Shown here: piece after piece, positions 1,236-15,300 of the stretch | Numbering within the stretch: the stretch's first letter is position 1 | Layout of the letters: each line of letters begins with the position of its first letter | Virus record (IMG/VR): IMGVR_UViG_3300046009_006298 | Coordinates: 1 to 21,275 of that record | Source: a virus | Reading direction: 5' to 3' (one strand) | Length of the DNA stretch: 21,275 nt | The notes under the pieces: generated by a model | Database searches by the model: none | Told to the model about the DNA's origin: nothing | The model's input: the letters and a program-made list of their open reading frames with translations, nothing else | Made by a program: the position numbers and the translations under genes

Positions 1236-1460
1236 ATGCAGACTATCACACTACAGGCAAGCGTGGACGCAAACGGCGTCATGCGTATTCACAGCATAGA
1301 CGGGCAACCGTGCGATATGGTGGCGATTTCAGCCGGCGACGCGGAGACGGCCTACCGGCTATCCATGAGCATGGCGCAATACTGGCGCAAGGCGATGGGC
1401 ATGGAACCATTGCCAACGGGCAAGCAATTAAAAAAGGCGGCGTATGGGCATCATCGATAG
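1236..1460 (+). CDS. Small unknown protein between terminase and portal (74 aa)
   Basis: I do not recognise this 74-residue protein. The start at ATG 1236 is chosen because TAGGAG lies just upstream and the frame follows the terminase stop by 7 bases. A longer reading of the same frame from 1056 would lie inside the terminase nuclease and has no ribosome site. The N-terminal half (MQTITLQASVDANGVMRIHS) looks like short beta strands. The C-terminal half, with AETAYRLSMSMAQYWRKAM, looks helical, and the tail is basic (KQLKKAAYGHHR). The 3' end overlaps the portal start by 17 bases, so the two are probably translationally coupled. The position suggests a small head or packaging accessory protein, but that is only inference from context. 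Confidence 0.72.
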   Translation: MQTITLQASVDANGVMRIHSIDGQPCDMVAISAGDAETAYRLSMSMAQYWRKAMGMEPLPTGKQLKKAAYGHHR

Positions 1461-3936
1461 AATTGCAGAGCGGTTTGGGTATCGCAAGGCCGACGACCGT
1501 GTGCAGGCGGACTGGCTGCGTGTCATGGCGGACAGTGAGCAATACAACATTCCGGATCGGACGCTGCCACAGGCGCAGAGCGATTTGTATAATCGGCTGT
1601 CCTGGGTACAAATGGCGATCTCCGTCGTTGCGCAGGACGTTGCGCTGACGGCGTTCGATGTTGCCGAGTTGAAGCAGGAAAAAACCGAACACATCGTCAA
1701 TCACCCGTTCGAGTTGCGATTGCGCCACCCCAACCCGTCAATGTCGCGCTTTGAGTTTTTGGAGGCTACCGCCAGTTATTACCGTCTTACTGGTAATGCC
1801 TTCTGGTGGCTGAATAAGACCAGCGAGACAGCAGAACCGGACGAGATTTGGGTGATTCCCACGCACATGGTAAAGCCTATTCCCGATGGCCGCATGTTCA
1901 TTCGCGGCTATGTCTACGAAAATGACGGAACTGAAATTATTTTACAGCCGCACGAAGTTGTGCATTTTAAGCGATTCAACCCCACGAATCCGTTTTGGGG
2001 GTTGTCGCCCATCGAGGCTTTGGCGACTGTTGCCACTGGTGACATGGCGATGCAGAAGTGGAACACTAACTATTTCGACAAGGATAACGCGAAGGCGCCG
2101 GGGGCGCTGGCATTTGCTGACGCCATCGAAAACGACGCCTGGGAGAAGATTAAGGCGGATGTCAATAGCAAGCACGGCGGTGTCCGTCGCCAAATGATGA
2201 TGCTGCGCAATGTCGGCAAAGGCGGCGTCCAGTGGATCAACATGGCGTTGTCGCAACGCGATATGGAGTTTTTGGCGGGACGCGAGAAAAACAAGGAAGA
2301 GATTTTTGGCATCTACGCGCCTGGGCTGGCATCTGTGCTGGCTGTCAATGCCACCGAGGCCAACAGCAAAGCGGGCAAGGCGACATTAAAAGAGTATGGT
2401 GTATGGCCGGCGTGTGTTGCCATTGCCGAGAAAATCACGAATGATGTTCTACCTCTCTATGGCGAAAATCTTATCGGAACGTTCCAGGACGTGCGCATCG
2501 CTGATCGTGGAATGCAATTAGCCGAGCAAAGCGCCGCTGAACGACTGCAAACAATTGATGAGTTGCGGCAGACGTATTACAACTTGATGCCACTGGCCGA
2601 TGGACGCGGTGAACGATTATTGTCAGAGCCGGTGCAATCGGCACCCGCTCAACCGGACACGAGTAGCCAACAGACACAATTGTCGCAAGTCTACCAGTAT
2701 CAGGTTACGGCTGGCATTGTGACGCGTGAAGAGGCGCGTGCGGGGCTGGGATTGCCACCGTTGCCACAGCCGCCGCCATCAGAGTATAAAGCCAAATTCG
2801 AGGCCATCGCCGCCGGCAAGGCGCTGGGCGTGCCGGTAGAAGCGATGTTTACCCTGATGGGGTTGCCGACCGATTTACTGCCAGTGGAAAACACCATCAC
2901 TGTTGCGCAACCCCGGCAACTGATGGCGCCACAAGATGAGCCGACGCAGGACGCGCCGCCCGACCAGGCTTTAGAAGTTGGCGACGATATGCGCCAGCAG
3001 GAAGCTAAAGCCTATCGCAAGTGGCTCAAGCGCAAGGCAGATCGCCACTGGTCAGCATTCAAAGCAGCCTACCTCACGCAAGGCGAATTAGAGAGCATCT
3101 ACGCCGAAGTGCGCCAGGGGGTCGCACCTGAAGAAAATTTTTTCGTGACTGGGAAAGCTACCCGTGACGACGATATGCCGGGGGCGGATGGTAGCGACGC
3201 TGAACGCGAGGCGCTAGAGAACAAGCACGCCAAGCGCCTTTACGTTGCGTTTCAGACGGTGTTGCTGAAAGTAGCGCCAGAGAATACCACCACAAGCAAT
3301 GTGACGGTAGATAAGGCCATTGAGCGCTGGCGCGATAATCGCAATATCGTGCGTGATGCCCTGGTGGACATGCTCACCGATGGCGTGTTGTTGGGCGCTG
3401 ATGTGGGCCAGCGCCAGGTGGAATATCTGCTTGGCGTGACAAAGGCCGTCAGCGTGACCGGTGTTGACTGGGATATGATCAATGTCAACGCTTTGCAATG
3501 GGTGACAGGCGGCGGCCAGCTTGGGATAGGGTTGGGCGACGGTTATGCTAACGCATTACTCGACACGATGACGCAGACGACAGAGAATGCGCTGCGTACT
3601 ATCTTTGGTGAGTGGATTCGCAATAACTTGAGCTATCGCCAGTTGGTGCAACAGTTGGATAGGACGGCGCTTGGCAGGCTGCGCGCCGAGATGATCGCGA
3701 CCACGGAGATTACTAGAGCCTATGCCGAGGGCAACCGGGCCGCATGGCGAAATAGCCGAATCATCAAGAAAATGCGCTGGCAGGCTGTGGGTGATGAGCG
3801 CACCTGTCCGCAATGCGGGCCGCTCAACCAAACCACCGCCGATGTTCAGGCAGGTTGGGCCGGCGCTATGCCACCGCTGCACCCGCGCTGTCGTTGCTGG
3901 TTGACACCCGTTCCAGTTGTAGAGGGCTTCGATTAA
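1444..3936 (+). CDS. Portal protein fused to Mu F-like minor head protein (830 aa)
   Basis: The N-terminal part (about residues 1-420) is an HK97/SPP1-type portal: YNRLSWVQMAISVVAQDVA, YYRLTGNAFWWL, the HEVVHFKRFNP strand, GLSPIEAL, and FGIYAPGLASVLAVNATEANSK, which is typical of portals. The portal is the dodecameric ring through which DNA enters the head. After a Pro/Gln-rich linker (about residues 390-530), the C-terminal part (about 560-830) matches the Mu gpF/SPP1 gp7 head-morphogenesis family: a helical EMIATTEITRAYAEGN stretch, then C788-P-Q-C791 and PPLHPRCRCW (810-819), whose Cys and His look like a metal-binding knuckle. In many phages these are two adjacent genes; here there is no stop between them. 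Known portals of this type run about 400-500 residues, so 830 fits a fusion. The gene starts inside the upstream small gene. MuF proteins are internal head proteins, so the fusion would place one copy on each portal subunit. Confidence 0.9.
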   Translation: MGIIDRIAERFGYRKADDRVQADWLRVMADSEQYNIPDRTLPQAQSDLYNRLSWVQMAISVVAQDVALTAFDVAELKQEKTEHIVNHPFELRLRHPNPSMSRFEFLEATASYYRLTGNAFWWLNKTSETAEPDEIWVIPTHMVKPIPDGRMFIRGYVYENDGTEIILQPHEVVHFKRFNPTNPFWGLSPIEALATVATGDMAMQKWNTNYFDKDNAKAPGALAFADAIENDAWEKIKADVNSKHGGVRRQMMMLRNVGKGGVQWINMALSQRDMEFLAGREKNKEEIFGIYAPGLASVLAVNATEANSKAGKATLKEYGVWPACVAIAEKITNDVLPLYGENLIGTFQDVRIADRGMQLAEQSAAERLQTIDELRQTYYNLMPLADGRGERLLSEPVQSAPAQPDTSSQQTQLSQVYQYQVTAGIVTREEARAGLGLPPLPQPPPSEYKAKFEAIAAGKALGVPVEAMFTLMGLPTDLLPVENTITVAQPRQLMAPQDEPTQDAPPDQALEVGDDMRQQEAKAYRKWLKRKADRHWSAFKAAYLTQGELESIYAEVRQGVAPEENFFVTGKATRDDDMPGADGSDAEREALENKHAKRLYVAFQTVLLKVAPENTTTSNVTVDKAIERWRDNRNIVRDALVDMLTDGVLLGADVGQRQVEYLLGVTKAVSVTGVDWDMINVNALQWVTGGGQLGIGLGDGYANALLDTMTQTTENALRTIFGEWIRNNLSYRQLVQQLDRTALGRLRAEMIATTEITRAYAEGNRAAWRNSRIIKKMRWQAVGDERTCPQCGPLNQTTADVQAGWAGAMPPLHPRCRCWLTPVPVVEGFD

Positions 3937-4377: not shown

Positions 4378-4407
4378 AAACTCACTATAGCATTTTTGCA
4401 AAAGTTG

Positions 4408-4416
4408 TGATATACT
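4408..4416 (+). promoter_or_regulatory. Candidate extended -10 promoter upstream of capsid leader
   Basis: TG-A-TATACT is a good match to a bacterial extended -10 element (TGnTATAAT). No good -35 hexamer lies 17 bases upstream (ATAGCA at 18 bases is poor), but extended -10 promoters can work without one. A start would be expected near 4423, about 14 bases before the RNA element, making an untranslated leader of about 100 bases for the protease-capsid gene. The region (4378-4436) is AT-rich compared with its surroundings. No equally good box is seen before the second RNA element. Confidence 0.4.
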
Positions 4417-4436
4417 GAACGCAACAAAATATCTTA

Positions 4437-4510
4437 AACGTCTAACCGTCTTACTTGACCAGCGGCGTAATTAGATCGGAGAAATCCGGTTTGGTTACGC
4501 CGCTTTTTTT
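4437..4510 (+). ncRNA. Structured leader RNA element, copy 1 (before capsid gene)
   Basis: This is the first of two related elements. In order: the box AACGTCTAACCG (4437-4448); a small hairpin closed by G4448-C4459, T4449-A4458 and C4450-G4457 with a 6-base loop; the box CCAGCGGCGT (4459-4468); an 18-bp hairpin (4462-4479 with 4486-4503) capped by AGAAAT (4480-4485); and seven T. Copy 2 (10452-10518) has identical boxes and an identical hexaloop, while both stems differ in sequence and keep pairing. For example, T-A at 4449/4458 becomes C-G. The 5' CCGT (4446-4449) could instead pair with GCGG (4462-4465), giving an alternative fold that would compete with the terminator. It lies 17 bases before the start of the protease-capsid fusion. 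It may be a terminator, an attenuator or a translation/antitermination leader. I do not recognise a named family. Confidence 0.7.
4462..4510 (+). terminator. Intrinsic terminator-like hairpin, copy 1
   Basis: GCGGCGTAA (4462-4470) pairs with TTACGCCGC (4495-4503). The stem continues through nine more pairs, some G-T, to an AGAAAT loop, and is followed by TTTTTTT (4504-4510). By form it is a strong Rho-independent terminator. Only 16 bases separate the T-tract from the next start codon, too few for a downstream promoter, so termination here would cut off the capsid gene unless it is partial or regulated. Confidence 0.7.
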
Positions 4511-4526
4511 GTTCATTTTTCTAACT

Positions 4527-7433
4527 ATGGCTGATTCATTTGTACCACCGCAAAACGTTCGCAGCGCCGCCCGCCGCGGGCTTGACCTCCGAAAAGAGTG
4601 GGGGCGCGGTGGCTTGTCTAATGCTGAAGCCAGCGAACAGGGCATTGGCAGCGGTGTGCAACGGGCGACAAATTTGGCGAATGGTGACGCTGTGAGTTTG
4701 GACACGATCCAGCGCATGGCTAACTTTTTCAGCCGCCACGAGAAGAACCGAGGCGCTGGTGAAAAAGAAGGCGACGGTGGCCCAACCGCTGGTTACATTG
4801 CCTGGCAACTTTGGGGCGGCGATGCTGGGCGAACTTGGGCGAATCGCATTTTACGAGAGCAGGACGAAGGCATGAAGGCAGGTAATCGCAACAACCGAAG
4901 CGACCGGCAACGGATTCGGGATATGCGCAAGGCGGCGCAATCTATTGTCTCTACGTCAATGGAACTTGAGCCAAATGAAACGGACGAAGCGCCCACCGTT
5001 CCCGACTACGTAGATCGCACCGCCAAGGCCGGAATGGACGCGCCAAACTACCGATCCGCCGATGGTGACAAATCGTGTGGGATGTGCAAAGCCTATAGCG
5101 ATGGCATGTGCAAGGCGCACGGCTTTGCGACCGGTGACGATATGGTTTGCGATGACTACGCTGATGGCGAGGGTGAAGGTGGTGTGACAGTTGAAATCGA
5201 AGTGAGCGGGGCGGCGAAGGGATTTGATTTAGACGCCACCGGATCGCAACCGCTGATCATCGGTATGGTGCGTGCCATCAAATCCGATGGCGAATGGGCG
5301 CTTGAAGTGCTGGGCGTGCCGTTTGGCGGCCCAAACGGCGGCAAGGACAGCGACGGCGAATATTTCAGCCAGAAAACGAACATCTATGCCAAACAGTATG
5401 CCACCGTGCCAGCGGTCTACTACCACGGCTACGACGAAACCGGCCACCCGTCCAGTGAACCGCAGTTTATCGGCATGGCAAAGTATGACCGTACCGACAG
5501 CAAAGGCCATTGGTTCAAGGTCATCTTGGATAAGGCGAACGATTATGCCCAGCGCGTCTGGAATGCCGCCAAGCAAGGCATTGCTCGCGCTTCATCTGGC
5601 AGCATCACACACTTGGTGCGCAAAGAGCGCGACGGCCACATTACCCACTGGCCGGTTGCGGAATTGAGCATTTTTGATGCCGTGGGCAAGCGCCAACCGG
5701 CGAACCAATACGCCGTTGCGTTGCCCGTACTTAAATCAGTTTATGCCCAGGCGGGTTTGACCCTGCCTGATGACATATTTACCGACTCTGCGCAGACGCC
5801 AGAGGATGCAGCTATAGGTGGCGACCGTACATCGTCACAAGGGCGGGCATCGGCAAAAGCGAATGGGACGGACACTCAACAAGACATTTCTACAGGAGTT
5901 ACGAAGATGGAACAGAATCAGATTGCAGAGCTTGTTGCTCAGTCTGTCAATGTGGCATTCGCCCAGCGCGACGCCGCCGCAAAGGCCGAGGCTGATCGCC
6001 AAGCCGAGATTACGAATGCGGCCAAGAGTGCCGCCGATGCCGCCGTCAAGGCCACCCGTGAGGCGATGCAAGCCGAACTGGATGCCGCCAAGAGCGCCGC
6101 AGATGCTGCTAAGGCTGAAGCCGCCGAAGCCCGCCGCCTGCCTGGTGGTGCGCCGCATGTTGCCAAGTTTGATGCCAAATACGATGGGTTATCCATCGAA
6201 GACTTGGCGTTTATGTCCGGCGTACTGAACAGCGCCAAGGGTATGCGTATCGACGGGCGCGAGAGTTCAGGCACTTCTGATGGGTTGCGCCGTGCGCTTG
6301 CCATTCGCTTGCTGGATTCCGCCGAGGGCAAAGACGCCGGCTACAATGCCGCCAAGAGCGCTATGCCTGATGCCGTTAAATCCATGAAGGCGAATGAGTT
6401 GAACTACTCAACGCTTTCCAGTTTCGGTGACGAGTGGATCGGCGTGACCTACAGTACCCAACTTTGGGACAAGATTCGTCTGCAAACTCAGATTGTCAGC
6501 CGCATCCCCACCGTGATTGTGCCGCAGGGCAGTGAATCCATTGTGATTCCGGTCAACACCACCAGCCCGACCTTCTACAAGGTTGCGCAGGCGACCGCTC
6601 AGGATGCGAACCCTGGCCGTGTTACCCCGACTGTGACCACCAGCCGCATGGGGACGACCAACAAGACGTTGACCGTTTCCAAGCTGGGCGCCGCTGTCAA
6701 CTATTCCGGCGAACTTGAAGAAGATTCGCTCATCCCGTGGATTGCCGAACTGCGCCGCGACCTGATCGCGGAAGGCGCCGAGGTGCTGGAACATGTGGTC
6801 ATCGACGGCGACACCGCCACCGGCGCCACAACCAACATCAATGACATCGGTGGCACCCCTGCCGGCAATGAGGCGTTCCTGCTGTTCGACGGCTTCCGCA
6901 AGTTGGCGCTTGTGACCAACACTGCCAACAGTCGCAGCGCTGGTACGTTGACGATTGAGGACTACCTGGAAACCATCAAGTTGATGGGGCTGGGTGGGAA
7001 GAACGCCGTCGATAAAAGCCGCGTCGCTTTTATTCTCGATATGTTCACGCACTGGAAATCGCTGGAACTGGCCGAACTCAAGACGCAGGATGTCTACTCG
7101 ATGCCAACCATCGAAGAGGGTCTGTTGCGCCGTATCTACGGCCATGACGTGCTTGTGACCAACAACATGCACCGTGCCAACCAGGATGCCACTTATGGGC
7201 TGAAGGCGAATACTGCCGGCAAGGTTGACTTGGATACCGCCAGCAATAACACGACCGGCAGCATTCTGGCCGTGCGCTGGGATCAATGGCGCCTGGGTTA
7301 CAAGCGCAACTGGACGTTTGAAGTTCAGCGCGACGCCATCAGCGACAGCACAGTGATTGTCGGCATGATGCGCGTTGGTATGGTCTACCGGGACACGGAA
7401 GCCAGTGCGATTTCTTACAACGTCACGCTGTAA
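4527..7433 (+). CDS. Prohead protease - scaffold - major capsid protein fusion (968 aa)
   Basis: Three head functions lie in one frame. Residues 1-110 form a helical domain (VRSAARRGLDLRKEWGRGGL ... GYIAWQLWGGDAGR), a motif set I associate with phage head genes but cannot name with certainty. Then comes a four-Cys cluster (C184, C187, C195, C208), possibly metal-binding. Residues about 220-430 are an HK97-type prohead protease with likely catalytic His300 (VYYHGYDE) and Ser356 (ARASSGS). Residues 461-550 are an Ala/Lys/Glu-rich coiled coil, like the scaffolding delta domain. Residues about 620-968 are an HK97-fold capsid protein (LSSFGDEWIGVTYSTQLWDK, VTVSKLGAAV-like strand, LEHVVIDGD, MRVGMVYRDTEA). 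Start ATG 4527 is chosen because the upstream in-frame TTG 4455 lies inside the terminator hairpin. ATG 4527 has no Shine-Dalgarno, only a T-rich tract, so full-length product may be scarce. An internal start at 5907 is described separately. Confidence 0.87.
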   Translation: MADSFVPPQNVRSAARRGLDLRKEWGRGGLSNAEASEQGIGSGVQRATNLANGDAVSLDTIQRMANFFSRHEKNRGAGEKEGDGGPTAGYIAWQLWGGDAGRTWANRILREQDEGMKAGNRNNRSDRQRIRDMRKAAQSIVSTSMELEPNETDEAPTVPDYVDRTAKAGMDAPNYRSADGDKSCGMCKAYSDGMCKAHGFATGDDMVCDDYADGEGEGGVTVEIEVSGAAKGFDLDATGSQPLIIGMVRAIKSDGEWALEVLGVPFGGPNGGKDSDGEYFSQKTNIYAKQYATVPAVYYHGYDETGHPSSEPQFIGMAKYDRTDSKGHWFKVILDKANDYAQRVWNAAKQGIARASSGSITHLVRKERDGHITHWPVAELSIFDAVGKRQPANQYAVALPVLKSVYAQAGLTLPDDIFTDSAQTPEDAAIGGDRTSSQGRASAKANGTDTQQDISTGVTKMEQNQIAELVAQSVNVAFAQRDAAAKAEADRQAEITNAAKSAADAAVKATREAMQAELDAAKSAADAAKAEAAEARRLPGGAPHVAKFDAKYDGLSIEDLAFMSGVLNSAKGMRIDGRESSGTSDGLRRALAIRLLDSAEGKDAGYNAAKSAMPDAVKSMKANELNYSTLSSFGDEWIGVTYSTQLWDKIRLQTQIVSRIPTVIVPQGSESIVIPVNTTSPTFYKVAQATAQDANPGRVTPTVTTSRMGTTNKTLTVSKLGAAVNYSGELEEDSLIPWIAELRRDLIAEGAEVLEHVVIDGDTATGATTNINDIGGTPAGNEAFLLFDGFRKLALVTNTANSRSAGTLTIEDYLETIKLMGLGGKNAVDKSRVAFILDMFTHWKSLELAELKTQDVYSMPTIEEGLLRRIYGHDVLVTNNMHRANQDATYGLKANTAGKVDLDTASNNTTGSILAVRWDQWRLGYKRNWTFEVQRDAISDSTVIVGMMRVGMVYRDTEASAISYNVTL
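5893..5909 (+). promoter_or_regulatory. Internal ribosome binding site and start for scaffold-capsid
   Basis: CAGGAG (5893-5898) stands 8 bases before an in-frame ATG (5907-5909), inside the protease-capsid fusion and exactly at the junction between the protease's trailing linker and the coiled-coil scaffold. It is much better than the site at the gene's own start. Confidence 0.7.
5907..7433 (+). CDS. Nested scaffold-major capsid protein (508 aa, internal start)
   Basis: Same frame as the protease fusion, beginning at residue 461 of it. The product would start MEQNQIAELVAQ, carry the coiled-coil scaffold (about its residues 1-90) and then the HK97-fold shell domain, without the protease. Nested, in-frame expression of a scaffold from a protease gene is known in lambda (C and Nu3); here the capsid protein itself is included. 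A head needs hundreds of shell subunits and few proteases, so an internal start with a good ribosome site explains how one frame could supply both. HK97 gp5 likewise carries an N-terminal delta domain that the protease removes. The cleavage point cannot be fixed by eye; it should lie between the coil (ends near 6150) and the shell start (near 6380). Confidence 0.68.
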   Translation: MEQNQIAELVAQSVNVAFAQRDAAAKAEADRQAEITNAAKSAADAAVKATREAMQAELDAAKSAADAAKAEAAEARRLPGGAPHVAKFDAKYDGLSIEDLAFMSGVLNSAKGMRIDGRESSGTSDGLRRALAIRLLDSAEGKDAGYNAAKSAMPDAVKSMKANELNYSTLSSFGDEWIGVTYSTQLWDKIRLQTQIVSRIPTVIVPQGSESIVIPVNTTSPTFYKVAQATAQDANPGRVTPTVTTSRMGTTNKTLTVSKLGAAVNYSGELEEDSLIPWIAELRRDLIAEGAEVLEHVVIDGDTATGATTNINDIGGTPAGNEAFLLFDGFRKLALVTNTANSRSAGTLTIEDYLETIKLMGLGGKNAVDKSRVAFILDMFTHWKSLELAELKTQDVYSMPTIEEGLLRRIYGHDVLVTNNMHRANQDATYGLKANTAGKVDLDTASNNTTGSILAVRWDQWRLGYKRNWTFEVQRDAISDSTVIVGMMRVGMVYRDTEASAISYNVTL

Positions 7434-7445
7434 TAGGAGGTTGCT

Positions 7446-7823
7446 ATGTCTGCATTGTACAACCTGAAAATGGGTAGCACCGATAGCAGTGACGTTAGTC
7501 GGGTCGTGGAAGCCATCAGCACGAATGGGGCTGTTAGTATTCCCGCCCGTGGCGAGAAGACCGTCTACATCACCAAGGGCAGTGGTGGAGCCTACATTTT
7601 GGCCGCGCCTACCTCTGGTACTCATGATGGCGTGCGCATCACGTTCATGAGTACCACGGCTTTTGCTCACACCGTCACGGTCACCACTATTGGCACGAAC
7701 GATGGCGGTACGGCCAGCGATGTCGGTACGTTTGGCGCGGCAAAAGGCAATAATTTTACCGTTGAGGCGTATGCCGGTGACTGGTGGGTTGTTGGTACGC
7801 CGGTAGGGATCACATTCGCCTAA
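7446..7823 (+). CDS. Putative capsid decoration protein (125 aa)
   Basis: A 125-residue, glycine-, threonine- and valine-rich protein with no charged helices, predicted to be all beta. It contains KTVYITKGSGGAYILAAPT, GVRITFMSTTAFAHTVTV and a final NNFTVEAYAGDWWVVG strand pair, a pattern often seen in phage surface or head-decoration beta-sandwiches. It has one of the best ribosome sites in the window (TAGGAGG before ATG 7446) and lies directly after the capsid gene, where decoration proteins usually sit and where high expression is needed. There is no recognisable catalytic motif. A small fibre-like domain or head-stabilising protein are alternatives. Confidence 0.6.
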   Translation: MSALYNLKMGSTDSSDVSRVVEAISTNGAVSIPARGEKTVYITKGSGGAYILAAPTSGTHDGVRITFMSTTAFAHTVTVTTIGTNDGGTASDVGTFGAAKGNNFTVEAYAGDWWVVGTPVGITFA

Positions 7824-8035
7824 TGCTGATTCAATTCAGTCGCGGCTATCGCGGCAAACTCACGCGAGAGATATTTTACGAAGCTGGTACTATTATCGAA
7901 TTCGATGATGGTGCGGCGGCAAATATCGTTGCGGAGGGCGCCGCGATAGTCGTGGAACCACCAACAGAGGAACCACCGGTAGAGGATGCGCCCAAGCCGA
8001 AGCGCGGGCGCCCCAAGAAAACTGCCGAGGAATAA
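7823..8035 (+). CDS. Small protein with C-terminal AT-hook motif (70 aa)
   Basis: The start ATG 7823 overlaps the previous stop (TAATG), so the gene is probably coupled to the decoration protein. Residues 1-42 form a compact beta-like unit (MLIQFSRGYRGKLTREIFYEAGTIIEF would be strands 1-3). Residues 43-58 are a Pro/Glu-rich linker (VVEPPTEEPPVEDAP). The end is PKPKRGRPKKTAEE, with the core R-G-R-P of an AT-hook that binds the minor groove of AT-rich DNA. Small proteins of the form 'beta unit plus acidic linker plus basic tail' recur in phage head regions, but I know no experimentally fixed role. The basic tail might contact packaged DNA or an acidic partner; that is inference. Confidence 0.68.
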   Translation: MLIQFSRGYRGKLTREIFYEAGTIIEFDDGAAANIVAEGAAIVVEPPTEEPPVEDAPKPKRGRPKKTAEE

Positions 8036-8038
8036 CGC

Positions 8039-8620
8039 ATGACCGCCTACTGCACACCGGGTGACGTGCGCGACGCGGCACGGCTTGACATTGCCAGCAC
8101 CAGCATGGATGCAGGCATTACACAGTTGATCGCCGCCGTGTCGCAACGGCTAGATCAACTGCACAACCTGCCGGCGGGCGGCTTTGCCGTAGCAGCGGAT
8201 ACTACTCGCTACTATGGCTACGACGCCATCCATCGCGGGCGGCTACATCTGGACGCGCCTTGCTTGTCCGTGACCACATTGACCAACGGTGATACGGTTA
8301 TCATTCCGTCTAACGCGTACCGATTGCATCCACGCAATGAGCCACGCAAGCACACCATAGAGTTAGTCAGCAGCGCGGGGTACGCCTGGGGGTTCTATGA
8401 TGATGGCGAAATCATCGTTGTCGGCAAGTTTGGCTACTCGCTGACCGTACCTGACAACGTTGCTGAGGCGTGCGCCATGTGGGCGGGATGGTTGCTGAAG
8501 CGCTATCAAAGCGCGTTGCAGGATGCCACCGCCAACCAGGAAATGGGGCAGCTTGTTTATAGTGAGTCTATCCCGAAACAGGTATTGGCGTTGCTACGAC
8601 CGAGGGGGCCAAGCTTATGA
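8039..8620 (+). CDS. Head-tail connector (adaptor) protein, gp6-like (193 aa)
   Basis: The N-terminus (MTAYCTPGDVRDAARLD...ITQLIAAVSQRLDQL) is the helical beginning typical of HK97 gp6/SPP1 gp15-like adaptor proteins: 'Y.tp.dvr...' followed by a helix that packs in the ring. The middle (residues about 50-130) is beta-rich (TRYYGYDAIHRGRLHLDAPCLSVTTL, YAWGFYDDGEIIVVGKFGY) and longer than in HK97 gp6. The C-terminal helix (VAEACAMWAGWLLKRYQ) is again typical, since adaptors end with a helix that inserts at the portal. The adaptor ring extends the portal and docks the tail. It begins 3 bases after the AT-hook gene and overlaps the next start as ATGA. Confidence 0.75.
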   Translation: MTAYCTPGDVRDAARLDIASTSMDAGITQLIAAVSQRLDQLHNLPAGGFAVAADTTRYYGYDAIHRGRLHLDAPCLSVTTLTNGDTVIIPSNAYRLHPRNEPRKHTIELVSSAGYAWGFYDDGEIIVVGKFGYSLTVPDNVAEACAMWAGWLLKRYQSALQDATANQEMGQLVYSESIPKQVLALLRPRGPSL

Positions 8621-9036
8621 GTCTAGACGCTGCCATTGATGGCCTGCGCACAAGGCTGGCAACCATGACCGGGCTGACACGCACCTACGCCGATCCGCCT
8701 GAAAGCATCAGCGAATTTCCATCGCTGATTGTTTATGGCACCGGTGGCGTGATGTACTATACCGCGTCCGGCGGTTACAGCTTGCACCGGCTGGTAGCTG
8801 ACATCTACCTGGCGCGTCAGTATCTACCCGAAACGGTAGACGCTGCCAAACCCTGGCCGGATCGGGCTTTCGCCGTGCTGAAAGCCGATCAAACGCTGGG
8901 CGGCGCTGTGTCTCATATCGTGTGGGATACCACCGGGGGACAGGGGCTGAACTACCGTTTCTTGCCGCTACAGTACAACACGACTACGTTGTTTGGTGTG
9001 CGGATTGAGGTTACAGTCAAGGTAAACGAGTCGTAA
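8617..9036 (+). CDS. Putative tail terminator / head-tail joining protein (139 aa)
   Basis: A 139-residue alpha/beta protein: N-terminal helix (LDAAIDGLRTRLATMTGL), then TYADPPESISEFPSLIVYG, an amphipathic central part, and a C-terminal beta strand pair (TTTLFGVRIEVTVKVNES). The pattern 'helix - PP.s..e.Ps.iv - long beta strands' resembles lambda gpU/HK97 gp10-downstream tail terminators, which cap the tube and join it to the head. Position between the connector and the tail-tube region agrees. I see no catalytic motif. It could instead be a stopper-type connector protein; the assignment rests on fold pattern and order, not on a diagnostic motif. Confidence 0.58.
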   Translation: MSLDAAIDGLRTRLATMTGLTRTYADPPESISEFPSLIVYGTGGVMYYTASGGYSLHRLVADIYLARQYLPETVDAAKPWPDRAFAVLKADQTLGGAVSHIVWDTTGGQGLNYRFLPLQYNTTTLFGVRIEVTVKVNES

Positions 9037-9527
9037 TGCACGACGCTTCATTCCGTGAGATGGCACGCATCCTGAAAACATGGCAAGGCAATGTCCCCCA
9101 TGTGCTTGACGTGGGTAGCGCTGACGTTAATGGCACCTATCGCCCGATTGCCAACTATCTGGGGTGGCGCTACACGGGCTTGGATGTGGCCGCCGGCCCC
9201 AACGTTGACATTGTAGCGCCCGATCCGTACCGGTTCCCGATTGATGATAGCGCCTATGACATCGTGATCAGCGGTAGCACGATGGAGCATGTACAGGCCA
9301 TTTGGCTGTGGGTTCCTGAGTTGGTGCGAGTACTGCGTCCTGGCGGTATGCTGGCGATCATCACGCATACCAACTACCCGTTGCACAGGTTTCCGGTGGA
9401 TTGCTGGCGCATCATGCCCGATGGAATGTCATACCTGTTTGATGCAACCGGCAAGCTGAAGAGTTACGATATTCGCATGTGCAACGAAACCGACATTAGC
9501 GGGGTGGCGTACAAATGCGCGTCCTGA
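9036..9527 (+). CDS. Class I SAM-dependent methyltransferase (163 aa)
   Basis: A compact Rossmann methyltransferase of the methyltransferase-11 type. Motif I is VLDVGSADVNG (residues 23-33), the SAM-binding glycine loop. GLDVAAGPNVD (48-58) carries the acidic residue that binds the ribose. YDIVISGSTMEH (74-85) is motif IV, and LRPGG (100-104) is the post-motif typical of small-molecule and sugar methyltransferases. HRFPVDCWRIMPDG (117-130) is a signature I know from methyltransferases found near sugar genes, rather than from DNA methylases; no DNA-methylase (D/N)PP(Y/F) motif is present. The protein is short, lacking most of a C-terminal half. It is coupled to the tail gene upstream (TAATG) and overlaps the glycosyltransferase by 13 bases. 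The substrate is unknown; a sugar put on the virion by the neighbour is the natural guess. Confidence 0.82.
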   Translation: MHDASFREMARILKTWQGNVPHVLDVGSADVNGTYRPIANYLGWRYTGLDVAAGPNVDIVAPDPYRFPIDDSAYDIVISGSTMEHVQAIWLWVPELVRVLRPGGMLAIITHTNYPLHRFPVDCWRIMPDGMSYLFDATGKLKSYDIRMCNETDISGVAYKCAS

Positions 9528-10168
9528 CCTACGTGCCACTAAATCCAACACAGCCACGCCTACACCCTCTCACCGCCGCCAGCATCGACAATCTAGTGTG
9601 GCCCGCCGCTATGCCGGTGGTGTACGGGCGCAACGATTCGCCCAATCGCATGGGTAAGTTTTACGACCTGTGCGACAAACACAACCAGGCGCGGGCAATG
9701 CTGCTGCAAGGTGGCTACGATGCGCTGTTGCTGGTGGAGGCGGATATGGTGATACCGCCCGATGCGTTGCAAAAGTTAGCGGCGCTAGATGTGCCGGTCG
9801 CCTATAGCCTGTATGTCAGCCGTGGTACGCCGCACGAGTGGCTGGCGTTGACCAGTCTCACCACCGATAGTCACGCTTTTGTTAGTGATGACGTTGCACA
9901 GGCACGGGCATGGTGGGGAACGCCAACCGAGAGCGCCGGGGTAGGCATGGGCTGCACGTTGATCCGCCGGGATGTGCTGGCAAAAATCGCCTTTCGCCTG
10001 GACAGGTTCGGCACAAACGCTGACGATTGGGCGTTCGCCCTGGATTGCGCCGCCTATGGGGTGCTACAGGTGAGCCACTGCGGTGTTGTGTGCGGCCACA
10101 TTGATGGCGATGCGGTGTTGTGGCCTGATGTGGACGCACCTGGATTGCTGAGGAAAGAGAAGTTATGA
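9515..10168 (+). CDS. GT-A-like glycosyltransferase (217 aa)
   Basis: The order of motifs fits a family 2-like GT-A nucleotide-sugar glycosyltransferase. An N-terminal strand (MRVLTYVPLNP) is followed by a helix with NQARAMLLQGGYDALLLVEADMVIPP, where E75-A-D77 is the DxD-like metal/nucleotide site. GVGMGCTLIRRDVL (142-155) is the acceptor-side loop, and N168-A-D170-D171-W supplies the likely catalytic acid pair ahead of a helix. No transmembrane segment or signal peptide is seen, so it acts in the cytoplasm. It overlaps the methyltransferase at its start and the next gene at its stop (ATGA), so it is embedded in the structural operon rather than loosely inserted. Virion protein glycosylation by phage enzymes has been reported in some actinobacteriophages; capsid, decoration or tube protein would be candidate acceptors here. 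Confidence 0.78.
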   Translation: MRVLTYVPLNPTQPRLHPLTAASIDNLVWPAAMPVVYGRNDSPNRMGKFYDLCDKHNQARAMLLQGGYDALLLVEADMVIPPDALQKLAALDVPVAYSLYVSRGTPHEWLALTSLTTDSHAFVSDDVAQARAWWGTPTESAGVGMGCTLIRRDVLAKIAFRLDRFGTNADDWAFALDCAAYGVLQVSHCGVVCGHIDGDAVLWPDVDAPGLLRKEKL

Positions 10169-10422
10169 ACACAGACATTGTCTACAAATACATCGGCAAC
10201 GGCGCTTTCGTGGTGGCTGATGTGCCAGTGCCGGCTCGCGACATTGCTGAATGGGAAGCCATGTTGTCGCCGGCACTGAAGGCGGCCATTGAGGCAAACA
10301 TTGCCAACGCGCCGGGGAGTTGTTTCGAGCGCGTGGAAGCGCCGCCACCGGTGACAACCACGAAGACGAAGGCGAGTGCCGTGCCGGTGGTTACGCCTGA
10401 ACTAGCGGCCACGGCTGAATAG
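10165..10422 (+). CDS. Small unknown protein before the tail-tube gene (85 aa)
   Basis: A short protein of a type I have seen near phage connector and tail genes but cannot name. It starts MNTDIVYKYIGNGAFVVADVPVPARD, a two-strand beta start followed by 'PARD(I/L)', then a helix (EWEAMLSPALKAAIEANIANAPG) and a low-complexity Pro/Thr/Ala tail (VTTTKTKASAVPVVTPELAATAE). The start overlaps the glycosyltransferase stop as ATGA. It is the last gene before the second RNA element, so it may end a transcript. No function should be assigned from the sequence. Confidence 0.7.
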   Translation: MNTDIVYKYIGNGAFVVADVPVPARDIAEWEAMLSPALKAAIEANIANAPGSCFERVEAPPPVTTTKTKASAVPVVTPELAATAE

Positions 10423-10451
10423 GTTATTGCCGCTCTAATTACATAAATCGC

Positions 10452-10518
10452 AACGTCTAACCGCCCAAGTGGGCCAGCGGCGTGTGAGTCTAGAAATAGG
10501 CTTGCACGCCGCTTTTTT
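10452..10518 (+). ncRNA. Structured leader RNA element, copy 2 (before tail-tube gene)
   Basis: Same order as copy 1: AACGTCTAACCG (10452-10463, identical 12 bases); a small hairpin G10463-C10474 through C10466-G10471 with AAGT loop; the box CCAGCGGCGT (10474-10483); then a 15-bp hairpin (10477-10491 with 10498-10512) with the same AGAAAT loop (10492-10497), and six T. The inner stem next to the loop is AGTCT/AGGCT here against AGATCGG/CCGGTTT in copy 1, so pairing and the loop are kept while the paired bases changed. CCGC (10461-10464) can pair with GCGG (10477-10480) as an alternative to the terminator stem. It ends 23 bases before the tail-tube start. No convincing promoter lies just upstream. 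Confidence 0.7.
10477..10518 (+). terminator. Intrinsic terminator-like hairpin, copy 2
   Basis: GCGGCGTG (10477-10484) pairs with CACGCCGC (10505-10512), followed by seven inner pairs and an AGAAAT loop, then TTTTTT (10513-10518). Form is that of a strong Rho-independent terminator. Again the tract is too close to the next start for an independent promoter in between. Confidence 0.7.
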
Positions 10519-10541: not shown

Positions 10542-11773
10542 ATGGCTACATACTCACCTTATTCCAATGCTAAGGTGCAACTGGGTTTGATCTGATCGTG
10601 GCCCAGTATAAACCCTTTCTGATTGACTTGAACGCTGAAACGCCAACAAGGGGCAAGCAAACGAAAGTTGTGCAGCCTGAGAGACTAAGTGAGAGGGCGC
10701 CGAAAGGCGATGCGATAGTCCGACCATACGCGAATAGAAGCGTATGAAACTAGCAGAAATGACTAGTTCGCAATATTTGTTGACAAAACAAGTATTGAAG
10801 CAACAAAAAGCGCGAATCGACAGCCGGAACCGCCGTCGCGGCATCTACAGTTTGGCGCGGCCCCTTCTCTATGATTGAGGATGCCCGCGAGCGCACAATC
10901 GTGGAGGAGCAAATCGGCGCCTTCGTCCAGGCAGAGCGAAGCTACGATTCGCTCATCTCTGCCCGTTGGTCACAGCCAGCAACGCCGCTCACCTACGAGC
11001 AAGTCTGTCACATTCTGGAAGCGGGTGTCAAGACCGTCACGCCCAGCGGCACCGGCGCCGTGAAAACGCGTGTCTACAACTATCCATTTTCGGGCACATC
11101 GGTCAACACGATCAAGACCTACACCATCGAAACCGGTAGCGCCACGGTGAGCGCCGATGTGTACGAGATGGAAATGGCGTTCGTGGAAGACTTCGAGTTC
11201 TCTGGGGCGTTCGGGGAAGCCTGGACGATGCAGAGTAACTGGGTGGGTCGCCAGATGACCGGCACCACGTTTACCAGCTCTCTGACGGCACCGACCGTCA
11301 ACGACTGCCTATTTAACCAAACGCTGCTGTACATCGACGCCAGCGGTGGCACCATCGGCACCACGCAGAAAAGCGGCGTGTTGACGGCGGCCAGTATCAA
11401 AGTAAAAACTGGCTTGATGCAAGTGCCGGTCGGGGACGGGCATCTGTACGCGGTTGACTACAAGTGGACGCAGCCTGAGATCACGTTTTCTCTCACAATG
11501 GAATTAGAAGACGCCAGTATTGTGGCGGCAGAGCGTGTCATCTATCGCGCCAACGGCACGCGCCTGCTTCGCCTCAAGGCTTCGCCGTCTGCCTCGCTGC
11601 AATTCCAGGTTGACATGGCGGCCAAGTACGACAGTATCAGCGACTACGAAAACAGCGACGGCAACACGACCGTCACGTTTGAGGGACACGGCGTCGCAAG
11701 CAGCGCTGACAGCCTGGCGCTGACTTTTACCATCCTCAATAGCGTTGCCGCTTTAGGGTCAGGGGGCCATTAA
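10542..11773 (+). CDS. Major tail tube protein, split by a group I intron (335 aa after splicing)
   Basis: Coding parts are 10542-10586 (15 codons) and 10811-11773. The exons join in frame to give KVQLG/RESTAGTAVAAS, where the slash marks the splice; this restores the 'lGrEstaGTaVaAt' N-terminal motif common in phage tail-tube and related virion proteins. Starting at 10871, the first ATG after the intron, would lose 35 residues and the motif. The mature protein is rich in Thr, Ser and beta strands (VYEMEMAFVEDFEFSGAFGEAWT, EITFSLTMELEDASI, LRLKASPSASLQFQVDMAAK, GNTTVTFEGHG), fitting the tube fold, and lies just before the tail chaperone pair and the tape measure. Tube subunits are made in hundreds of copies. 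Without splicing the ribosome meets TGA at 10593-10595 and makes only 17 residues, so the intron is essential for tail production. The homology assignment rests on motif and position. Confidence 0.83.
10587..10810 (+). ncRNA. Group I self-splicing intron, 224 nt, no endonuclease
   Basis: All key elements can be drawn. P1: exon CTGGGT (10581-10586) with GCCCAG (10601-10606), ending in the required U-G pair at the splice site. P10: CGTG (10597-10600) with CGCG, the first four bases of exon 2. P3: CCCTTTC (10613-10619) with GAGAGGG (10691-10697). P4: TTGaCTT (10623-10629) with AAGCAA (10655-10660), one bulged A. P7: GACTA (10683-10687) with TAGTC (10716-10720), in the usual 'GAGACTA...ATAGTCC' setting. 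P8: CGCC/GGCG with a GAAA loop (10698-10709). P9: CATACGC/GCGTATG (10725-10746), then two further hairpins (10748-10768 and 10771-10797). The last intron base is G10810. P5 and P6 (perhaps AAC-GAAA-GTT at 10660-10669) are less clear. An in-frame TGA 9 bases into the intron stops ribosomes before the core, as in known phage introns. Confidence 0.92.
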
Positions 11774-12332: not shown

Positions 12333-15300
12333 TGGCAAGCAAATTAGAACTGTCGGTCATCGCAAAGAATCAAGCATCGGCAGTGCTTAGACAGATCGGC
12401 GGCGACATTGCCGGGCTAGGCAGACAAGCAACATCGGTAAGCCAGCAACTTAAAGGCATGGGGCAGGGTATGACCAGCATCGGCACTGGCTTAACGGCTG
12501 GCGTTACAGCGCCGGTGCTGGGAGTGGGGCTGTCATCCATCAACGCCGCGGCGGATATGGAACAACTCGATATTGCATTCACCACGATGTTGGGCAGTGC
12601 CAGCGAAGCAAAAAAGCTTATGGAGGACTTGACCAAGTTTAGCGCACAGACACCGTTTGAAATGCCCGAAGTGGTAGCGGCGGGGCGGCAACTGTTGGCG
12701 TTTGGTATCGAGGCCGAAGATATTGAAACAACGCTACGCCAGTTAGGCGACGTGGCCGCTGGCGTAGGTGCGCCAATTGGCGATCTGGCTTATTTGTATG
12801 GCACGGCAAGCGCCAGCGGGCGATTAATGACCGTAGACATTAACCAGTTTGCCATGCGCGGTATTCCCATCATTGGCGCACTCGCTCAAGTAATGGGGGT
12901 TGCCGAGAGCCAAGTACGCGACATGGCCGCCGAGGGCGAAATTGGCGCTGAGGAAATGAAACAAGCGTTTGCGCTCATGGGTAGCGAAGGCGGCAAGTTT
13001 GCGGGCCTGATGGCGGCGCAGAGCCAAAGCGTCAAGGGTTTGTTCTCTACCGTCAAAGACAACGTGGGGCAAACGCTCACGGTCATCGGCAACCAAATCA
13101 TCGAGACTTTTGATTTAAAGCGCTTGCTTGGGGATGCCATTGTTTATCTTGAGCAGATGCGCAACATGATCACCGACCTGGCGAAGAATAATCCGGCGCT
13201 GTTCAAAATGGCTATCGGTTTCGGCGTGGTGGCCGCTGTTATCGGGCCGGTTGTCCTGGGGCTGGGCATGGCAGCAACAGCGGTGGGGATGGCATTACCT
13301 GCGCTTTCGGTGCTGGGTGGCGTACTGTCTGGACTGGCGCTACCCTTTGCGGCGGTAGGAGCGGCGGCGGTAGCGCTGTACTATGACGTGGGCGGTGTGC
13401 GTACACTGTTGACCGACTTTGGCAAAGGTGCGTTCGATTCGCTACTTGCCAAACTGCCAGAGGTGCAAGCCATCGGCGCTGATGTTGCGGAGTCTATTGG
13501 CAATGTAGTTACGGCCATTCAAGACTTTCTTGCCGGCGCTGACATAAGCGCAGCGACCACGACGCTAACGCAATCATTTACAGGTGTAAAAAATGCGCTA
13601 GGTGAATTGTTCACCGGTGATATTGGTATCAGTGAATTTGCGTCAAAGATTTCTGATGCCGTATCTGGCATTCCCGCAATGGTAAGCAGCGTGTTTGCTG
13701 GCGCTGATTTTTCCGCCATGAAAGGCGAAATCATAACGGCGCTAGGTCTGGACAATGTGTCATTTGACCTAAGCGCATTGCAGACCAACATATCAACCGC
13801 CATCGGTAGCATTGATTGGTCGCAAGTTGCAGCGCAATTCAACACACTGAAAGACAGTGTTGGCACGGCGCTGAACTCGGTACGGGACGGGGTACTATCT
13901 AGCCTAACGGCAGCGGTCAACGGCATTGATTGGTCTGCCATCAGCCTGGATTTTGCCGGGATGATTGACAGCGTTACGTCCACGATTAATGGTATTGACT
14001 GGTCGCAGATCAGCATAGAGGACATTGGACTAGCGCTGGCCGGTGTTGTTATGCCGGTGTTGACTAATTCCATTCGTGGCATTGTTTGGGTGCTTAATAG
14101 TGATAGCTGGTCAGGACTAACGGCATCCGTGAAAAGCGCCCTGGCATCAATTGAGTGGGGCGAAATTGGGCAAAGCCTATCAGGGCTAGGCGCCGCTGCT
14201 ATTGATGCCGTCACCGGTCTTGACTGGTCAACAATCACAGGCGCATTTGAGTCATTGCGATCCAGTGTATCAAGTACTATATCAGGACTTGACTGGTCAA
14301 CTGTAACAGGCGCCTTTGGGACATTGGTGTCAACGGTTACTGGTGCGCTGTCCAGTATTGATTGGTCAACCGTTGCAACTGAATTTAACTCATTAAAAAC
14401 CAGTGTGGTTACAGCAATATCGGATATTGACTGGACAGCCGTTGCAACTGAATTTAACTCATTAAAAACCAGTGTGGTTACAGCAATATCGGATATTGAC
14501 TGGGCGGCCGTTGCAACTGAATTTAACTCATTAAAAACCAGTGTGGTTACAGCAATATCGGATATTGACTGGGCGGCATTATCTACCACTTTTGAGTCTC
14601 TAAAAACAAGCGCGCTAAATGCCTTATCCGGCATTGACTGGTCTGGTGTATCAACCGGTTTTACAGCACTAAAAACATCTGTCGTAGACACGGTATCCGG
14701 CATTGACTGGTCTGGTGTATCAACCGGTTTTACAGCACTAAAAACATCTGTCAGTACGGCGATTGCCAACATCGATTGGGCCGGAATAGCGCAAAACCTA
14801 AACGGGTTAGCAGCCGCTGTATCAGCGGGAGTTTCAAGCATTGATTGGTCAGGCGTATCAAGTGCTTTTGACGCATTAAAAACAACGGTATCAAGTACAT
14901 TAACTGGCATCAACTGGTCGGAGGTGTTGCAGAATTTTGTAGCATCCGCCAACACACTGCGGGACAATCTGATCCAGTCGCTTGCCGACAAAATCAACGG
15001 CATTGATTGGTCTGCCATCAGCCTGGATTTTGCCGGATTCATCAATAAAATCGCGTCCACGATTAGCAGCATTGACTGGTCGCAAGCGGTTGTCAACGTT
15101 GCTGGATTCATCAGCAGCATTTCCAGCAAGATCAGCAGCATTGACTGGTCGCAGATCAGTGTAGGTGCAATCGGCGCCGCGCTAGCGGCAGTGGTTGCGC
15201 CAGCGCTAACAGCAGGCATCGCCGGCATCGCTTGGGTAATCAGCAGCGAAAATTGGGGCAACCTCCTTAGCGCCGTTACCGGTTCGATAGCCGAAATTGA

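Follow-up and report, generated by a model that had tools for sequence, protein, structure and literature searches.

Organization of the leader copies

The window, a stretch of 21,275 nt from the virus record IMGVR_UViG_3300046009_006298, contains two leader copies at positions 4437-4510 and 10452-10518, which occupy the gaps ahead of the capsid and tail-tube genes, respectively. The capsid gene is a fused gene, the N-terminal part of which was unmatched in many relatives. The gene behind copy 2 matched neither Pfam nor PHROG, and its "tail tube" label rests on its position and on the call of an earlier sequence-only note on this DNA. The features of the two leaders and of the genes behind them are as follows.

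4388..4416, + strand: promoter of the capsid leader, TAGCAT - 17 nt - TATACT with an extended -10 (TGATATACT); read from the sequence, with a matching site in relatives
4424..4432, + strand: +1 box ACAAAATAT, 7 nt past the -10, family consensus AYYRAATAR; read from the sequence
4438..4442, + strand: copy 1, 5' strand of the putative antiterminator stem P1, ACGUC; fold of the shortened transcript
4448..4459, + strand: copy 1, hairpin P2, GUC-UUACUU-GAC; folding
4464..4468, + strand: copy 1, 3' strand of P1, GGCGU, which also lies within the 5' arm of the terminator; fold of the shortened transcript
4461..4510, + strand: copy 1, intrinsic terminator with a 20-bp stem, GAAA loop and T7; terminator scan and folding
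4527..7433, + strand: capsid gene, 968 aa, head domains and a Phage_capsid C-terminal part; Pfam PF05065, phrog_10
10438..10446, + strand: box of copy 2, ATTACATAA, without a good -10 ahead of it; read from the sequence
10453..10457, + strand: copy 2, 5' strand of P1, ACGUC; fold of the shortened transcript
10463..10474, + strand: copy 2, hairpin P2, GCCC-AAGU-GGGC; folding
10479..10483, + strand: copy 2, 3' strand of P1, GGCGU, common with the 5' arm of the terminator; fold of the shortened transcript
10476..10518, + strand: copy 2, intrinsic terminator with a 17-bp stem, GAAA loop and T6; terminator scan and folding
10542..11773, + strand: gene behind copy 2, split by a 224-nt insert at 10587-10810; comparison with the relative L001

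The earlier note had described two copies with exact boxes and with stems that differ in sequence and stay paired, and both points were borne out. Box AACGTCTAACCG was found exactly at 4437 and 10452 and box CCAGCGGCGT exactly at 4459 and 10474, within a 32-nt block of 81% identity, and the P2 stem showed a true double change between the copies (GUC/GAC versus GCC/GGC). A lone 12-mer or 10-mer would not be remarkable; it is the paired boxes at fixed spacing, together with a stem of 17-20 bp and a T-tract in both copies, that are. The reported AGAAAT hexaloop proved to be a GAAA (GNRA) tetraloop closed by an A-U pair, which is a G-U pair in the first loop (GGAAAT) of the close relative L001, and this loop was not conserved in the wider family. 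Covariation of the terminator stem, which had also been put forward as evidence, proves by itself nothing past a terminator.

Folding gave a short hairpin and a strong intrinsic terminator in both copies, that is, a GC-rich hairpin followed by a U-tract, with uninterrupted stems of 20 and 17 pairs in the terminator scan. Compared with shuffled sequences, the whole leaders had z values of -6.8 (copy 1) and -5.8 (copy 2), and the terminator stems alone had values of -8.5 and -7.6.

The insert in the gene behind copy 2 (10587-10810) contains no ORF and was absent from L001, and its excision restored the reading frame (GRESTAGTAVAAS). It shows group I-like features, namely a T at the end of the 5' exon, a G at the end of the insert and a GACTA/TAGTC pairing; an Rfam search with it gave no match.

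Leaders before the capsid genes of related phages

When viral contigs were searched for exact matches, none outside the window's own lineage (L001-L005) came up. Both copies were present in L001, with small changes that left the stems paired. Searches with the capsid yielded about 150 loci, some of them in assemblies of Anaerolineales and other Chloroflexota, so the hosts of these phages are probably Chloroflexota. No relative was detected by tblastn with the window capsid against 50,697 GenBank phages.

A strong terminator, in most cases with a T-tract that fits T4-8 N1-3 TT, stood close ahead of the start codon in about 40 distinct capsid leaders. Under one uniform rule applied to 100 non-redundant contigs, viral and Chloroflexota prophage, a terminator lay just upstream of 30 of the 86 capsid genes and of 9 of the 930 other ORFs (Fisher p 4e-27). 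Of these nine ORFs, the one in L140 is similar to the N-terminal part of the same capsid region, so the contrast is more likely to be under- than overestimated. No such leader stood before roughly half of the related capsid genes. Many relatives thus had what is expected of an attenuator, namely a terminator close to the promoter within the leader of the gene under control. The proposed preference for both capsid and tail-tube genes was upheld for the capsid; no tail-tube copy turned up outside the window, L001, L002 and L004, all of the window's lineage, among contigs of relatives that are mostly fragments.

A covariance model was built from the leaders of the window, L001, L045 and L142 and searched against 1.08 Mb, with matches taken up to E 10. 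It gave 13 further same-strand matches (E 0.01 to 7.5), each weak and with a score largely driven by the terminator, so that their location is what counts: 12 of the 13 lay in capsid leaders. The earlier note had proposed such a search of relatives; homologous leaders were present in many phages, and the leaders that the model recovered were almost exclusively those of capsid genes. On ten whole genomes or records, the model found the known place in L045 only. A strong GC-rich hairpin directly 3' of the capsid gene of L106 (4767-4839) also scored with the model and is probably an ordinary hairpin between the capsid and the next gene.

Promoter and +1 box

The earlier note had remarked that the leaders leave no room for a downstream promoter. 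Its account is corrected here in that copy 1 has a promoter upstream (4388-4416), and only copy 2 is without an obvious one. Copy 1 reads TATACT-GAACGCA-ACAAAATAT, and copy 2 keeps the box-like ATTACATAA. The equivalent place in relatives carries TTGCAT/TTGACA - 16/17 nt - TANNNT, and in many of their leaders an extended -10 promoter is followed, 7-8 nt past the -10 and at about +1 to +9, by the box AYYRAATAR.

When both strands of 1.07 Mb were searched, the strict pattern TANNNT-N7/8-AYYRAATAR had eight matches. Every one was on the gene strand and had a terminator behind it, with a start codon a further 12-24 nt on. Seven preceded a capsid gene and one (L050) an ORF for a membrane-protein-like product of 93 residues. 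The mirror of the pattern had three matches, none with a terminator, and the relaxed pattern was found at 21 of 84 versus 7 of 115; the pattern was derived from these very leaders, and these counts measure its specificity rather than an independent discovery. The box pattern was not enriched in six Chloroflexota genomes (10 matches versus about 20 for a control pattern).

Three roles considered for the box were set aside: pairing with the U-tract, which fits the window alone; the end of a leader peptide, for which there was no consistent ORF; and a -10-like pause site, for which the register is wrong.

The L050 unit (676-773), with full promoter, box and terminator, lies near a peptidase-like region, and its surroundings are perhaps a lysis cassette. 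In L163 (about 1560-1680), from the phage of L084, a strong terminator lies within about 80 nt of a separate promoter-like site and has no gene immediately after it; this may be a small RNA.

Putative antiterminator pairing in the leaders

The element P1-AGAG-P2-P1', in which the outer stem P1 and the inner hairpin P2 are separated on the 5' side by an AGAG bulge, was found in 12 of 49 leaders, compared with a mean of 1.2 and a maximum of 3 in shuffled leaders; these leaders are not all independent (L051 and L130, for example, are similar) and the motif was noticed before testing, so the counts are a guide and not a strict probability. The AGAG form thus occurs in only about a quarter of the leaders. 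Representative units are AAACGCC-AGAG-GCCUACCAAGGC-GGCGUUU (L043), GAAUGCC-AGAG-GCCCCAACGGGC-GGCGUUC (L084/L101), GGGUCGC-AGAG-AUCGAGAAGAU-G-GCGGCUC (L060) and CUGCU-AGAG-...-GGCAG (L074). Other bulge sequences occurred at about the level of the shuffles, except for CAGA, which overlaps AGAG, and, to a weak degree, GAGA and ACAG.

In 9 of the 12 AGAG leaders, the 3' strand of P1 starts 1-5 nt inside the 5' arm of the terminator, which makes P1 and the full terminator mutually exclusive. A separately defined antiterminator test was positive at p<0.05 in 9 of 40 leaders (Fisher p 0.013). A general test of the pairing energy of the arm against shuffles was weak (mean z -0.49, 33 leaders), and the motif-specific tests were used instead.

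For the window, the earlier note had proposed that CCGC or CCGT competes with the terminator by pairing with GCGG. When transcripts cut before the 3' arm were folded, the best competitor was instead ACGUC, which paired with GGCGU around P2 in both copies. Taken alone against shuffles, this P1 was not significant (z -0.58 and 0.09), and a strict P1-linker-P2 search missed it; its putative role is assigned by analogy with the AGAG leaders. The idea of a leader that switches between terminator and antiterminator is supported in its place before the capsid gene and, as a shared-arm antiterminator, reaches significance in a subset of the leaders, and it is not carried by the window's P1 alone. The two boxes hold both strands of P1 and the internal loop UAACC/CAGC, which would explain their identity between the copies. 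This internal loop was also found in L045 and L142/L052 (GCC-ACC-...-AGC-GGC), giving the window type, with its UAACC.../...CAGC loop, four clear members (the two window copies, L045 and L142), two of which are paralogues. The window copies are a short variant of the wider leader family.

The AGAG/terminator pattern, which is exact and narrow enough for divergent copies to escape, was absent from the 199 host-class genomes searched. In L071, non-capsid ORFs are preceded by three leaders (at 966, 1488 and 3647) whose CCAGAG unit and terminator are nearly the same, which indicates reuse of the module within one genome.

The AGGAUA/GAAAAG domain

Six leaders (L046/L122, L054, L070, L076, L139 and L024/L110) contained a larger domain, built around an AGGAUA/GAAAAG internal loop, with the order P0 - AGGAUA - P1a - (ACAGG, AGAG or CAUAGG) - P1b - P1a' - GAAAAG - P0'. 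Its three helices were paired across the six members with changed pairs and one mismatch, in P1a of L070; the pairs were counted by script in a hand-set structural register, and no formal covariation statistic is claimed. An alignment of the short modules (A4, A5) with MAFFT ignored the structure and was set aside.

A descriptor of the domain without P0 had seven non-redundant matches in 1.07 Mb, and capsid leaders made up five of these. Narrow motif scans of 2.9 million viral contigs added L184 and L233 as members, the remaining matches being mostly coding sequence without a terminator. Promoter, box, domain, terminal unit, terminator and head genes were all present in both, and folding gave the same topology. 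L233 is a leader of the capsid family. L184 has a different capsid and an unfused head-gene order, its leader standing before ORFs for a 210-aa, a protease-like and a capsid-like product (gene identities judged from sequence).

With the pattern AGGATA...ACAGGCCCGG in viral contigs, only two matches, both known members, were genuine. The exact and narrow AGGAUA pattern had four matches in the 199 host-class genomes, which were judged to be chance from the matched letters alone.

Comparison with known RNA elements

As the earlier note had found no described family to place the leaders in, so Rfam searches at permissive thresholds with the window, the relatives and the new members gave chance matches only, riboswitches and the T-box included, and no description of such a leader was found in the open-access literature. 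The T-box antiterminator is built of an outer helix, a 5'-side bulge and an inner helix, and its outer helix competes with the terminator. The phage leaders have the same plan and the same predicted competition, but the T-box bulge is UGGN, which matches the tRNA acceptor, whereas the phage bulge is AGAG.

The leaders targeted by ANTAR proteins (AmiR/NasR/EutV) are similar in having tandem small hairpins, the second of which overlaps the 5' part of an intrinsic terminator, and stabilization of this second hairpin leaves a shorter terminator split from the U-tract (PMC3369936). In the hairpin loops of ANTAR targets A1 and G4 are critical, whereas the phage leaders have a conserved AGAG in the 5' bulge and variable hairpin loops. 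The P2 loops (UUGAAU, UACCAA, UUACUU, AAGU and others) do not follow the rule of A1 and G4 in two hairpins, so ANTAR membership is not supported. A search for ANTAR proteins was negative in all 15 contigs, with the control set equally silent. In the RAT systems of BglG/SacY/LicT, too, an antiterminator stem excludes a terminator just ahead of the regulated gene (PMC3369936); these systems serve sugar-catabolic operons through a defined RAT element and a PTS-controlled protein, unlike the phage leaders, which precede virion genes and have AGAG/UAACC loops. In both LicT/RAT and ANTAR control a protein stabilizes a hairpin that removes part of the terminator (PMC3369936), and by analogy they may be taken as the nearest worked examples.

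Proposed function of the leader

The anatomy of the leader, its recurrence and its position before capsid genes, with the P1-terminator overlap of a subset, are observed computationally. They suggest, with a probability of roughly 0.6, that the element serves late (virion) genes as a transcription-attenuating leader, which would be off by default and freed by some factor, presumably late in infection. A strong sigma-70-like promoter would initiate a short leader RNA with the conserved box at its 5' end, one or more units of stem, 5'-side bulge and hairpin in the middle, and a strong intrinsic terminator that closes it at most a few tens of nucleotides ahead of the start codon of the capsid gene. 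P1, the outer stem, would in the last of these units take the base of the 5' arm of the terminator and so exclude the full terminator. The predicted stability is about -30 kcal/mol for the terminator and about -6 to -14 kcal/mol for the arm pairing of P1. The terminator being far more stable, termination is the expected default, and P1-bulge-P2 would need stabilizing for the capsid to be expressed. A factor (a ligand, or a protein of phage or host origin) would hold P1-bulge-P2 and leave a shorter terminator detached from the U-tract, and the polymerase would then enter the capsid gene. In the window phage, the unit would have been duplicated ahead of the tail-tube gene.

Part of the same evidence could be read as control of the Q type, in which the promoter and +1 box would load a phage protein, the polymerase would then ignore the promoter-proximal terminator and the RNA hairpins would matter little. 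The promoter and box are indeed the most regular parts of the leaders, and the order of promoter, short leader, terminator and late genes is the layout of lambdoid pR'-tR' (PMC6606751). Q, however, depends on promoter DNA and on a pause signal resembling a -10, and inspection of the AYYRAATAR box revealed no -10-like pause hexamer NANNNT in register. Moreover, copy 2 and L098 have the box and leader without a good -10, the Q family searched for (Phage_antitermQ, PF06530) was found in none of 15 contigs, mostly fragments, with a positive control, and the conserved RNA structure of these phages, with its bulged hairpins overlapping the terminator and its several cassettes, would be left unexplained; we consider Q-like control unlikely. 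Rather improbable is a cis-acting RNA of the put type, in which the leader itself would bind RNA polymerase and, unaided by a protein, make it resistant to this terminator and to those further on. A structured RNA right after the promoter, with tandem bulged hairpins in several phages, recalls HK022 putL, which stands right behind its promoter; put RNA is about 70 nt long, has two stem-loops and passes distant terminators via the zinc-binding domain of the RNAP beta' subunit (PMC9378689). But put elements belong to early operons and share no strand with a terminator, and the P1-terminator overlap favors local switching.

The complete promoter-terminator units are also of the size of small RNAs, so they could be genes for a trans-acting RNA of 70-150 nt, with read-through into the capsid gene as leakage. 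There is a precedent in the prophage RNA IsrK, which is reported to act both as a small RNA and as a messenger RNA, with two isoforms (PMC4825925). The terminator, however, lies within tens of nucleotides of a start codon, mostly that of a head gene, copy 2 has no good promoter, and the putative small RNA differs greatly in sequence among the phages, all of which make this a quite improbable reading. Least probable is an ordinary terminator or insulator, or a 5' hairpin stabilizing the mRNA, with no switching. Although the terminator supplies most of the conserved signal of the window copies and looks typical, with a GNRA loop and a long GC-rich stem, a plain terminator is hard to explain between a promoter and the gene of the most abundant protein, and it predicts neither the box nor the AGAG units nor the AGGAUA domain.

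For the attenuating leader, the arrangement shared by many related phages suggests a common on-switch for particle production. More tentatively, and with the odds against it, the leaders may represent a new class of phage RNA switch, in which reusable modules of stem, AGAG bulge and hairpin, single or in tandem and some within an AGGAUA/GAAAAG domain, would have spread across phages with different capsid genes as a common on-switch of virion genes read by one conserved reader, be it a phage protein, the capsid itself or a small ligand. The timing of structural genes in Chloroflexota phages appears to be unstudied, and a shared leader with a built-in terminator before the capsid genes offers a directly testable mechanism and a handle on the missing regulator. 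Such a switch would take phage antitermination past the paradigms of N, Q and put, and as a new RNA family the leaders could mark the late promoters of uncultured phages.

Other structural genes of the window

Two further structural genes were observed in the window. The gene at 1444-3936 is a fused one, a portal with a Mu F-like head domain. The tape-measure gene contains head-to-tail repeats of 69 nt (23 residues, motif ..DW...) at 13800-15500, and the identity of the repeats reaches 96% at 14287-14769.
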